Shown here in pieces: positions 1,885-5,147 of a stretch of 5,147 nt of DNA; within the stretch, counting starts at the first letter, position 1, and each line of letters opens with the position of its first letter. Under the pieces are notes generated by a model. That model was given only the letters and a program-made list of their open reading frames with translations, was not told the DNA's origin and did no database searches. This DNA is from an uncultured Rhodobacter sp. (GTDB taxonomy: Bacteria > Pseudomonadota > Alphaproteobacteria > Rhodobacterales > Rhodobacteraceae). The translations under genes and the position numbers were made by a program. The stretch is taken from the NCBI GenBank assembly GCA_937901435.1, contig CALGTJ010000225.1, forward strand, positions 1 through 5,147, in the 5' to 3' direction.

Positions 1885-2256
1885 TTAAATACGTTGTTTG
1901 TAGTAGGTGTCCTTGTGGACAATTAGCCCATCCTTAAAGGTAAGAATATCCACGCTAAGATATTCCTCGGTTGTTCCATCTTTGTGTCGCGCCGTGCGGC
2001 GGTATTCGCAGTATGCCTTGGTCGCCGTCAACGCGCAATCAAGCGTTTCCCAATTCACGTTTTCCACCTTGTCAAATAGTCCAGAAAAGACTCTACGGAT
2101 CACTTCAGCGCCTTCAAAACGAACGCCATGCGCGTCTGGGCCGATGGCATGGTCAAATGTTGCATCAGCGGCAAAAAACTTCATTACGGCATCAATGTCA
2201 TTTGCGTTAAAGGCGTCGCCAACGGCATCCACTAGTTCGCGTGTAATATCTGTCAT
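1885..2256 (-). CDS. NTF2-like / SnoaL-like small protein
   Basis: This encodes 123 residues, the usual length for a single-domain NTF2-fold protein. It begins with a helical stretch (ELVDAVGDAFNANDIDAVMKFF) followed by 'AADATFDHAIGPDAHG' and 'FEGAEVIRRVF'. It ends in alternating strands ('AYCEYRRTARHKDGTTEEYLSVDILTFKDGLIVHKDTYYKQ'), the order expected of the alpha+beta cone with a hydrophobic pocket. Family members act as isomerases, cyclases, dehydratases or ligand-binding partners. Asp22, Asp31, Asp35 and His36 near the pocket entrance are possible functional residues, but this is not shown. AAAGGA lies 7 bases before the ATG and forms part of the final hydrolase codons, with only 4 bases between the two genes, suggesting translational coupling. 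It is the last gene of the compact operon; no strong terminator follows. The specific function is unknown. Confidence 0.85.
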   Translation of the reverse strand: MTDITRELVDAVGDAFNANDIDAVMKFFAADATFDHAIGPDAHGVRFEGAEVIRRVFSGLFDKVENVNWETLDCALTATKAYCEYRRTARHKDGTTEEYLSVDILTFKDGLIVHKDTYYKQRI

Positions 2257-2260
2257 ATCA

Positions 2261-3148
2261 TTATCCTTTCAGGCCAAGTATGGCGCAGGTTTTTGCAAAG
2301 AACGGGCTGGTTGGATCAGCCAATACGTTGAGTTCATCAAAGTGGTCCACATCCGGCACCACATAGATTTCCATGGGCCGCTCGTCGGTTGCAAACTTGT
2401 CTAGGTACATTTGCGACTGGCGATGAAATTCGGCTGTTTCTGCCCCGCCGACGACGACCATTTGCGGGGCATTTGTCAGCGGTGGATGATTGGTCATTGG
2501 GCTTTCGGCGTTTGCCTCGGCAGCGTCCATCCTAAGGTTAGCGTTAAGGGCGAGGGTCAGGCGCACAGGCTCCAAAAAACTAAGCGGAGATACGGGAATA
2601 CCCGATTTTATGAGATCAGCTGGCAAGCCGCCATCGCGAGCAACCCAGTCGGTTGCCATCATCATCTGGGTCAGATGCCCTCCGGCGGAATGGCCCATCA
2701 CCGTAATCCGGTTGCGGTTGATGCCCAACTTTGGGGCTTCGTGCCAGATGTATGTAAGTGCCTCACGAATTTCCTCAGAGATACGCGTCATCGTGACGCT
2801 CGGGCATAGATCATAGCCCACGACCACGACATTCGCTCCCGCTTTTACAAAGGCCGTCGCCAAGAAACTATAGATTGATTTGTCACCACGCTGCCAATAT
2901 CCGCCATGGATCCAAATCAAGGTCGGCGCAGTTGCATCCCCGCACCGAAACACATCCAGCACTTGCTTTTCGCCAACCGCATAACGCACATCCAACACGC
3001 AATCGAGTGTATCACGTGCCACCTGACTGGCCGCGGTCCAGTCAGGGATCACGGTTTCCTCGTAATCGGGTCGACCTGCGCGTAGGTTATACTGAGCGTC
3101 GAACCAGTCAGGTTCATGCTCTTGGTGAAAAGTAAGGGGATCGGTCAT
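2261..3148 (-). CDS. Alpha/beta hydrolase of the kynurenine-formamidase-like (arylformamidase/esterase) type
   Basis: This encodes 295 residues with one alpha/beta-hydrolase domain and no signal peptide, so it is probably cytoplasmic. The oxyanion-hole motif HGGYW is at residues 81-85 and 'YDLCP' at 112-116. The nucleophile elbow GHSAGGH has Ser154 as catalytic serine, and His269 in 'DVDHFDEL' is the likely catalytic histidine. Residues 233-245 read 'VGGAETAEFHRQS', the arylformamidase-type acid segment, with Glu237 where animal enzymes as I recall them have Asp. This pattern is closer to N-formylkynurenine formamidases than to the wider HSL lipase family. The start has GGAG with an 8-base spacer, lying in the last codons of the preceding small ORF, which it overlaps as ATGA. 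No tryptophan-catabolism genes accompany it, so the substrate is more likely an ester, lactone or N-formyl/amide product of the upstream monooxygenase (inference). Confidence 0.9.
   Translation of the reverse strand: MTDPLTFHQEHEPDWFDAQYNLRAGRPDYEETVIPDWTAASQVARDTLDCVLDVRYAVGEKQVLDVFRCGDATAPTLIWIHGGYWQRGDKSIYSFLATAFVKAGANVVVVGYDLCPSVTMTRISEEIREALTYIWHEAPKLGINRNRITVMGHSAGGHLTQMMMATDWVARDGGLPADLIKSGIPVSPLSFLEPVRLTLALNANLRMDAAEANAESPMTNHPPLTNAPQMVVVGGAETAEFHRQSQMYLDKFATDERPMEIYVVPDVDHFDELNVLADPTSPFFAKTCAILGLKG
2264..2269 (-). promoter_or_regulatory. Ribosome binding site for the SnoaL-like gene
   Basis: AAAGGA lies 7 bases upstream of the ATG at 2256. It encodes the last Lys-Gly of the hydrolase and touches its TAA stop, so ribosomes ending the hydrolase cover the next start. 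Confidence 0.75.
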
Positions 3149-3302
3149 ACAGGTATCTCCGGATCGGGTGCGGCAAAAAAAGTGCAGTTACAATAGACAA
3201 ATGGGGCGCCGGGCTGATGGGTGTAATTCTCCACCAATACCAGCAGGATTTCGTGATCTTAGGCTTCGATACGAGCGCGCAGCGATAATCTTTCAGGTCC
3301 AT
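3145..3302 (-). pseudogene. Small ORF (about 52 residues) with a probable one-base frameshift, unknown function
   Basis: Two overlapping frames join into one coherent small protein. The first starts at ATG 3302-3300, fused to the GST stop as TGATG and preceded by GAGGGGG with a 7-base spacer. It reads MDLKDYRCALVSKPK to about 3258. It then turns implausible (CWYWW). The other frame, free of stops after the TAA at 3261-3259, continues DHEILLVLVENYTHQPGAPF and then VYCNCTFFAAPDPEIPV. It ends in a TGA that overlaps the hydrolase ATG as ATGA. The span is 158 bases, one fewer than 53 codons need. Loss of one G in an AAGGATC context near 3258 would explain the break, though the exact site is not fixed. 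No transmembrane segment or signal peptide is evident. I do not recognise the family. The break may be a true mutation, a sequencing error or, less likely, recoding. Confidence 0.55.
3157..3160 (-). promoter_or_regulatory. Ribosome binding site for the alpha/beta hydrolase
   Basis: GGAG lies 8 bases upstream of the ATG at 3148 and forms part of the Pro-Glu codons near the end of the small ORF's second frame. Confidence 0.7.
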
Positions 3303-3979
3303 CAAACGACCCCCTCGGATGCGCAGGCTTTTTCAAGGGCCGCCCATTCGTCAGGGTTAGTTCCAAAATGGCGCATCACGTGATCGCGGTAGGCTAGTCG
3401 CTCTGTTAGACGGTGATACCATGCCTCGACATGCGGCAATGTGGGGCGCTCGACATCAACATTAAAATAGCGATAGGCAATACAACCCAGCGGGATGTCG
3501 GCCATCGTAAAAGTATCACCACAGACGTAATCACGTTCGGTTAGATGCTGGTCCAAGATGCTTAGAGCGGCATGCGCTTCGTCTCGCAAGCCTGCTATTT
3601 TCACGGGGTCGCGGTCATCGGGTTGCGTGCGGACCGTTGCAAAAAACATATGGATGACGGGCATGAACGCCTTGCTGGCTGACCATTCCATCCACTGATC
3701 CGCAACAGCACGGGTTTGCGGGTCTGCCGGACTCAGTCCCCCCGCGCTGTAACGATCACAGAGATAACGCACGATAGCGAGACTTTCCCACAACGCAAAA
3801 TCGCCATCCCTGATCGCAGGAATCATGCGGTTGGGATTGATCACTGCGTATTCCGGTGTGTCCAGCTTGCCAAAGCTGCCACCAGCCAGTTGCAGCGTAT
3901 ATTCTAATCCCAGTTCATTCGCAGCCCAGATCACAGGGATCACATTGGACGAATAGGGTCTCCCCCAGATTTCAAGCAT
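3302..3979 (-). CDS. Glutathione S-transferase family protein
   Basis: This encodes 225 residues, a normal cytosolic GST length. The N-terminal thioredoxin-fold domain covers about residues 1-77. It opens with 'WGRPYSSNV', placing candidate catalytic Ser10/Ser11 where theta/zeta-type enzymes carry Ser. It also has the glutathione-site cis-proline Pro54 in 'NPNRMIPAI' and the gamma-glutamyl-binding pair Glu65-Ser66 in 'WESLAIVRYLCDRY'. The all-helical C-terminal domain contains the N-capping box Thr158-Asp161 in 'TFTMAD'. The frame is open up to 4072, but the extra 31 residues are monooxygenase gene read in another frame. The ATG at 3979 has a GGGAG ribosome site 7 bases upstream and starts the fold correctly. 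The start overlaps the monooxygenase stop in ATGCTTGA, and the stop joins the next small ORF as TGATG. It could conjugate glutathione to an electrophilic intermediate or act as a glutathione-dependent isomerase; the sequence does not distinguish these. Confidence 0.93.
   Translation of the reverse strand: MLEIWGRPYSSNVIPVIWAANELGLEYTLQLAGGSFGKLDTPEYAVINPNRMIPAIRDGDFALWESLAIVRYLCDRYSAGGLSPADPQTRAVADQWMEWSASKAFMPVIHMFFATVRTQPDDRDPVKIAGLRDEAHAALSILDQHLTERDYVCGDTFTMADIPLGCIAYRYFNVDVERPTLPHVEAWYHRLTERLAYRDHVMRHFGTNPDEWAALEKACASEGVV
3310..3316 (-). promoter_or_regulatory. Ribosome binding site for the small frameshifted ORF
   Basis: GAGGGGG lies 7 bases upstream of the ATG at 3302, within the final GST codons (Glu-Gly-Val-Val-stop). 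Its presence supports a real translated gene beginning at the TGATG junction. The match could in part reflect GST codon content. Confidence 0.55.
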
Positions 3980-5147
3980 CAACCAACTCCCGTTTTTGCG
4001 CAATTGACTGTGTGCCAAAACGCGGCACGATATGTTCGAAAAGCCGATGCCAGCTTGCGAGGATCTTCTCATATGGGACGCCGGTGTACTGCTGCATCAA
4101 CATCAAATGATCTAGACCTGTGGCTTCTTGTCGTTCCGCGATCCGGTCAGCCACAAATTCAGCGTCACCCACCATAATGATCCCCCGCTTGTTCAGGAAA
4201 TCGAACCAGTCGCTGTCTTCGTCCTCTGACGTCATTTCCTCATCGATGTCGAGGTATCCGCGTTTGGTCCACTCTCCCGCAGGGCGTGAACCGCCAAGGA
4301 ATTCGTAATAGGCGTTGATTGAGGGTCTGATGGTGTTGACGGCCTCCTCCATGCTTTCGCCAACATAGAAAGCAGTGCAGACACCAACGCCCTCGCCCAA
4401 AACCACTTCGCGGCCTGTGCTTGCCGCCAGTGCATCCCGATACGGTTCCCAACAGGCGCGCGTGCGTTTGACGCCCGCCGCCATAGAGATCACGCCCCAG
4501 CCCTTGTTTCCAGCGAGTTTGAATGTTGGTGGCGCATTGGACATCAACCAAACAGGCGGGTGTCCATTCTGATAGGGTCGCGGATGGACATACATCGCTT
4601 TATAATTGCCGTTTTCGTCATGATAACGCGAATCAAGCGGTTCAAAGAAACGATTAGTTTCCTTCCAGCCCGGTACTGGGAATTCATAGAACTCGCCCTT
4701 GTGGGTGAACACGTCGTTGGTCCATGCCTTCAGGATAACATCAAGGCTTTCTTGATAAAGCCGCATGACCTTGCCGTTGTCGCGGCGGTCTGCGTCAGGG
4801 TTGAACTGGATAGTAGAACGTTCGTTGATACCCTTAGCCACGCCAAAATCCACACGCCCAAGGGTCATATTATCCAACATTGCCACATCCTCAGCCACAC
4901 GCAATGGATGCCAGTCGGGCAGGATGATCGGTGCCGTTCCAACCCGCAGCTTTTTACAGTGAGCCGCGACATGGGTGCACATCTGTACGGGATTGGGTGG
5001 CGCGTTCATATAACCATTGTGGGCAAAGTGATGTTCCGTGAACCACGCAGTTGTAAAACCAGCGTCCTCAGCCAGGGAACATTGCTCGAGGATCATCTCA
5101 AGTGTTCGCGTCCACGGGATGGTTTCCCCGGGACTGAAATTCGCGAT
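3972..5147 (-). CDS. Luciferase-like (LLM class) flavin-dependent monooxygenase, 5' end cut by window edge
   Basis: The frame is open from the TGA at 3974-3972 to the right edge, giving 391 visible residues. The ATG at 5096 is internal: residues before it (including NFSPGETIPW) continue the family alignment, so only a short N-terminus is missing. Visible residues 25-41 match the conserved 'LAEDAGF..AWFTEHHF' segment of bacterial luciferase-like TIM-barrel proteins. Residues 67-106 match the 'LRVGTA..ILPDWHPLRVAED.AMLD....GRVDFGV.KG' segment, and the C-terminal 'VGDAEFVADRI' and 'GLDHLMLMQQYTG' blocks are also typical. The family uses reduced FMN, usually supplied by a separate reductase, to hydroxylate substrates or perform Baeyer-Villiger or desulfonation chemistry. 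It should be a soluble cytoplasmic enzyme. It is the first visible gene of the operon, and its stop overlaps the GST start by 8 bases. Family assignment is firm; substrate and reaction are unknown. A coenzyme F420-dependent relative is less likely in this type of organism. Confidence 0.93.
   Translation of the reverse strand: MANFSPGETIPWTRTLEMILEQCSLAEDAGFTTAWFTEHHFAHNGYMNAPPNPVQMCTHVAAHCKKLRVGTAPIILPDWHPLRVAEDVAMLDNMTLGRVDFGVAKGINERSTIQFNPDADRRDNGKVMRLYQESLDVILKAWTNDVFTHKGEFYEFPVPGWKETNRFFEPLDSRYHDENGNYKAMYVHPRPYQNGHPPVWLMSNAPPTFKLAGNKGWGVISMAAGVKRTRACWEPYRDALAASTGREVVLGEGVGVCTAFYVGESMEEAVNTIRPSINAYYEFLGGSRPAGEWTKRGYLDIDEEMTSEDEDSDWFDFLNKRGIIMVGDAEFVADRIAERQEATGLDHLMLMQQYTGVPYEKILASWHRLFEHIVPRFGTQSIAQKRELVDA
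3987..3991 (-). promoter_or_regulatory. Ribosome binding site that fixes the GST start
   Basis: GGGAG lies 7 bases upstream of the ATG at 3979, inside the last codons of the monooxygenase gene. It supports this start over the longer open frame reaching 4072. Confidence 0.75.

Follow-up and report, generated by a model that had tools for sequence, protein, structure and literature searches.

The window, the whole stretch of 5,147 nucleotides that was analysed, derived from an uncultured Rhodobacter sp. (GenBank assembly GCA_937901435.1, contig CALGTJ010000225.1). On the minus strand, its genes were ordered luciferase-like monooxygenase, glutathione S-transferase (GST), a gap at 3302–3145, alpha/beta hydrolase, SnoaL-like protein and, after approximately 400 bases, FAD-dependent oxidoreductase. 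The closest relative found, Octadecabacter ascidiaceicola (locus L022), carried an intact flavin reductase gene in the position of the gap, overlapping its GST and hydrolase neighbours in the same way. The features of the window were:

3972–5147, minus strand: luciferase-like monooxygenase (PF00296, E 2.3e-41), with its start beyond the window.
3302–3982, minus strand: glutathione S-transferase-like protein; its stop overlaps the old reductase start (TGATG).
3145–3302, minus strand: highly probable remnant of a flavin reductase gene (PF01613), with both ends kept and 328 middle bases absent relative to L022.
2261–3148, minus strand: alpha/beta hydrolase (89% identity in L022); its start overlaps the old reductase stop (ATGA).
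1885–2256, minus strand: SnoaL-like protein, found after the hydrolase in the operon relatives whose contig extends that far.
107–1477: FAD-dependent oxidoreductase (PF12831), past the gap of approximately 400 bases (1478–1884).

The original prediction had described 3302–3145 as the only gap in the operon. This is correct for the part between the luciferase-like and SnoaL genes, but a further gap (1478–1884) precedes the FAD-dependent oxidoreductase gene. Among 35 loci (see below; flanks up to 6 kb), a match to this oxidoreductase was present only in L024, in pieces of 58% identity on the other strand, so it is no fixed member of the operon. A divergently oriented gene for an HTH-cupin protein, likely the regulator of the operon, preceded the monooxygenase gene in L013 (2942–3559), L022 (2944–3600) and L024 (3424–4041). 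The window genes shared with L022 were under purifying selection (omega 0.04–0.11 against L022). The monooxygenase, with omega of approximately 0.04, was 92% identical to that of L001 and 95% identical to that of L022. A literature search yielded no description that we recognised as this operon, which is not a claim that none is in print, and we claim no substrate for it.

The gap was 158 bases long, and both reading frames in it translated as originally given. At one end, the GST stop overlapped an ATG on the minus strand (TGATG, with the ATG at 3302–3300), preceded at 3316–3310 by a ribosome-site-like GAGGGGG identical to that in L022. At the other end, the TGA of the second frame overlapped the hydrolase ATG (ATGA, 3148–3145). 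The following elements were distinguished:

3282–3302, minus strand: 5' end of the old reductase (MDLKDYR...), in the original start frame, with the best breakpoint at 3281; compare MDPKDYRR in L022 and MDIKDYRC in L001.
3145–3281, minus strand: 3' end of the old reductase (RARIEA-stop-DHEILL...PEIPV-stop), in a frame offset from that of the 5' end and matching L022.
3259–3261, minus strand: TAA stop in the old reductase frame, GAA in L022 and L001.
3157–3160, minus strand: GGAG, the likely hydrolase ribosome site, within the kept 3' end and with identical bases in L022.
3114–3302, minus strand: 62-codon open reading frame (ORF) from the old reductase ATG, running out of frame across the junction to a stop within the hydrolase gene.

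Relatives of the operon were collected by a hydrolase scan of genome contigs, which gave the 35 loci. L001–L026 were close (70–89% identity) and L027–L035 were distant and without this operon. Whole-genome hydrolase searches at E 1e-100 gave matches in 1/19, 4/394, 2/389, 1/62, 1/6, 2/387 and 2/293 genomes (the sets overlap and every count includes the centre genome), and added three further operons, L037–L039. Counting the window and L004, whose GST had decayed to a tail, but not L026, which had no GST upstream, the gap between GST and hydrolase was compared across 29 operons. Hydrolase relatives were also present in 346 plasmid records, all below 60% identity (best among the matches listed, 46.7%). 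The 241-base junction stretch was unmatched on plasmids, and viral contigs held no hydrolase relative.

An intact homologue in the same place, which the original prediction had proposed to look for in related operons, was present in 14 of the 29 operons, as a flavin reductase of 155–164 residues filling the gap between the GST and hydrolase genes:

Operons with an intact reductase: L001, L005, L007, L009, L010, L013, L014, L015, L017–L020, L022 and L023.

The reductase stop overlapped the hydrolase start in 13 of the 14; the copy in L015 ended 13 bases before it. Since the intact L022 gene has both overlaps, the coupling at the two ends of the gap is, as had been argued, beyond chance. The L022 copy (L022:5519–6001; a 486-base gene encoding 161 residues) was assigned to PF01613 with E 2.6e-41 and 141.7 bits against a cut-off of 27, over residues 11–153. 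It also matched eight NCBIfam reductase models, all under their curated cut-offs, so that the partner enzyme is not named by those models. Its start (MDPKDYRR) is the counterpart of the first frame of the window, and its C-terminus (...RARIDAEDHEILLGLVENYTHQPGAPLVYCRGTFFAAPQPEIPA) is the plain counterpart of the second. In a tblastn search of seven spacers, the 3' end of the window gap matched the L022 reductase over 47 residues at 79% identity (E 1e-24), and the two ends aligned around a gap of 328 bases, as expected for homology to the L022 gene. The L022 orthologue resembles the short flavin reductases of two-component monooxygenases (PF01613; HsaB, FerA, StyB and RutF models). In contrast, with 158 of 486 bases left, about a third of the gene, the window cannot make the enzyme: no full-length open frame across the PF01613 domain was present in it, most of the domain being gone and the remainder being split between two frames and interrupted by the TAA. 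The proposal of a hidden, broken small gene was therefore correct as to a broken gene coupled at both ends, but the gene was neither small, with 155–164 residues in the intact relatives (n = 14), nor of a family that could not be named.

Relative to L022, about the first 21 and the last 137 bases were kept, and 328 bases between them were missing, with the best single breakpoint at 3281. The lesion had been read as a single missing base near 3258. Instead, 328 bases were lost from the middle of a 486-base gene, and a TAA at 3261–3259 came in addition; this stop, directly before DHEILL in the second frame, was absent from the earlier description. Because 328 is not a multiple of three, the deletion accounts for the apparent missing base. 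TGCGC occurs at the left edge in L001 and L003 and at the right edge in L022, which makes a deletion between short repeats plausible, and the deletion perhaps arose between such direct repeats. The junction repeat consists of TGCGC only, its left copy being taken from L001 and its right copy from L022. A 7-base repeat in L022 was rejected as the deletion repeat, as its spacing is 330 rather than 328.

From these alignments, we conclude that 3145–3302 is almost certainly a pseudogene, the remnant of a PF01613 flavin reductase gene after an internal deletion of 328 bases; close relatives retain the orthologue intact in this position, as such an origin predicts. In the ancestor, the space between the GST and hydrolase genes would have been filled by a complete flavin reductase gene that was coupled to its two neighbours. 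Judging from the protein families, the luciferase-like monooxygenase encoded in that operon would have received its reduced flavin from this reductase. One internal deletion would have put the two gene ends out of frame. The old frame also contains a stop and has excess amino-acid changes, and the rest of the operon remains under selection. The remnant has the general features of bacterial operon pseudogenes formed by internal deletion: kept ends, a lost middle, a broken frame, a stop, relaxed change, and close relatives with the gene intact.

Changes in the 3' remnant were polarised with L001 as the outgroup. The window side had 8 nonsynonymous and 2 synonymous changes and the L022 side 1 and 8, with 2 ambiguous (Fisher p 0.0055). 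On the same branch, the GST, hydrolase and monooxygenase genes of the window together had 52 nonsynonymous and 154 synonymous changes (p 0.0007 against the 8:2 of the remnant). Both comparisons indicate relaxed constraint after the loss, from small numbers and one outgroup. Between the remnant and L022, dN was 0.112 and dS 0.499, giving a dN/dS of approximately 0.22, which is only mildly higher than the 0 to approximately 0.12 of intact pairs across the same stretch where computable. The case for relaxation therefore depends on polarising ten changes with the single outgroup L001, which is distant at silent sites (dS 1.67 to L022), and polarisation was noisy in the intact flanks too (8 nonsynonymous to 9 synonymous on the L022 side of the GST gene). 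A recent loss fits both the mild dN/dS and the polarised excess. Start signals within the remnant ends, together with a recent date of the loss, may explain why these ends persist. GAGGGGG still precedes the old start and GGAG the hydrolase start, each identical to L022.

A database search with the 62-codon ORF returned one protein, P0002 (52 residues, 2 contigs, 4 members), and a search with P0002 returned one more, P0123 (53 residues, 1 contig). The longest contigs encoding them measure 307,132 bases for P0002 and 4,999 bases for P0123. Both proteins begin with the junction peptide of the window, MD.KDYRCALVSKPKITK, which argues for an inherited deletion and not an assembly slip; the deletion thus appears to occur in other assemblies as well. 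None of the whole-genome hydrolase searches reached the DNA that encodes P0002 or P0123. By BLASTP, the window ORF was 85% identical to P0002 over 46 residues and 79% identical to P0123 over 53, and P0002 and P0123 were 89% identical over 90% of the query. P0002 stayed in the shifted frame past DHEILL, with just its last residues (PEIPV) in the old reductase frame, while P0123 was shifted to its end and the window ORF likewise remained in the shifted frame. The carriers of the deletion thus differ by a later small frame change.

The junction ORF could be a new gene born from the deletion scar and selected either for linking the translation of GST to that of hydrolase or for its peptide, in which case selection would keep a scar-born small ORF open in several lineages. 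The ORF is open in all three known carriers (62 codons in the window, 52 in P0002 and 53 in P0123) at identities of 79–89%, and the changes on the window side comprised 5 nonsynonymous and 5 synonymous in the shifted frame, where approximately 76% nonsynonymous would be expected (binomial p 0.065). However, ten changes are too small a sample, part of which may have arisen before the deletion, and the carriers do not agree in their C-termini. Among intact relatives, 8 of 13 also have the shifted frame open as far as the hydrolase start (L015, ending elsewhere, was left out), so that its openness is no evidence of function. We consider selection on this ORF unlikely. The junction ORF of 52–62 codons is probably a by-product of the deletion, and the hint of constraint on it is weak and non-significant.

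Far less probable still is the model of the original prediction, in which a gene of about 52 residues from an unfamiliar family lost its reading frame through a single-base defect near 3258 or a sequencing error. It would explain the exact coupling at both ends and a length of 158 bases, one short of whole codons, and P0002, with 52 residues, has a start like that of the first frame and an end like that of the second. An intact gene of about 52 residues in those two frames was absent from this place in all 29 operons, whereas 14 held a reductase of 155–164 residues whose ends match the two frames of the window. Moreover, the second frame holds the TAA, and neither P0002, shifted past DHEILL, nor P0123, shifted to its end, is the proposed protein. 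An assembly or sequencing artefact, in which the organism has a whole reductase gene and the contig joined two copies of the short repeat found at the junction, is scarcely credible given the stop and the excess amino-acid changes in the remnant and the junction peptide common to P0002 (2 contigs, 4 members) and P0123 (1 contig).

The pseudogene differs from usual deletion remnants in that absence of the gene at this locus recurs in relatives. No intact reductase was present in 15 of the 29 operons, which comprised three stubs, four untraced spacers and eight near-bare junctions. Besides the window, these were:

Stub, L002: 268 bases, an in-frame partial gene.
Stub, L003: 70 bases, starting MIELKDYNCALGSF.
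No more than 15 bases separating GST from hydrolase: L008, L011, L016, L021, L024, L025 and L037 (8 bases in L037).
Bare junction beside a decayed GST tail: L004.
Untraced spacers of 58–138 bases: L006 (69), L012 (69), L038 (58) and L039 (138).

The spacers of L006 and L012 were tried as reductase remnants and rejected (best tblastn E 0.38 and 0.071). They carried the label 'remnant' in the tree run and are counted as untraced here, which leaves the count of intact and not intact operons unaffected. In a tree of four shared proteins (30 rows), the window was sister to the intact L022 (97/90), with the intact L001 next. Presence or absence of an intact reductase required 6 changes on this tree, at least 5 of them forced by starred branches; shuffled labels required 9.9 on average and were as low in 7 of 500 runs. 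The label was thus clustered, so some losses are common to clades, although the count of changes does not tell gain from loss. The pieces kept in the window, L002 and L003 have different cut points, suggesting that the three arose by separate deletions.

Several relatives showed further peculiarities. In L016 (5200–6897), the GST and hydrolase genes formed one frame after a G run, with no stop between them, and the sister L037 keeps the stop; this join reflects either fusion of the two genes or a sequencing error within that run. Upstream of the hydrolase gene in L004 (about 5035–5235), there was just an apparent GST tail with a broken frame and stops, the reductase being gone too. Records labelled as SAR116 cluster (L002) and Acidimicrobiaceae (L026) carried this Rhodobacteraceae-type operon or hydrolase, at 84% and 73% identity, respectively, reflecting either transfer or mislabelled contigs.

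Monooxygenases of this luciferase-like kind receive their reduced flavin from a separate reductase, and the monooxygenase of the operon is presumed to be such a user. The L022 reductase was searched in 18 genomes, corresponding to 18 of the 26 close loci. All 7 genomes with an intact operon reductase gave a match at 71–100%. The 11 genomes without an intact operon copy held no reductase of at least 71% identity and, apart from the stub of L002, nothing above 46%; several of the 18 genomes are partial (two of 1.4 and 2.2 Mb), so absence there is weak evidence. Ten of these 11 held a distant reductase, with best identities of 30–46%, one of them with an internal stop. After loss of its own reductase, the operon monooxygenase most likely takes reduced flavin from reductases encoded elsewhere in the cell.

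According to an excerpt of PMC5192521, several reductases can serve diketocamphane monooxygenases. An excerpt of PMC12239570 describes luciferase-like monooxygenases without a nearby reductase and suggests that reductases elsewhere assist them. The window resembles the systems in that excerpt in that the monooxygenase is kept, no reductase adjoins it and reductases elsewhere are suggested to serve it. It differs from them, as far as the excerpt describes them, in the other partners of the operon (GST, hydrolase and SnoaL) and in a visible deletion scar. Service by reductases encoded elsewhere would explain how the operon can lose its own.

In place of a supposed unfamiliar gene family, the gap thus exhibits visible operon decay. 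The remnant is ordinary and belongs to a known enzyme family, and only the recurrent loss of the gene is of some interest. With the other genes of the window's operon under purifying selection and an intact reductase missing in 15 of 29 operons, our analysis suggests that, among the components of this marine operon, the dedicated flavin reductase is the one that can be dispensed with. The freedom with which such monooxygenases draw on a common supply of reduced flavin is a testable point.
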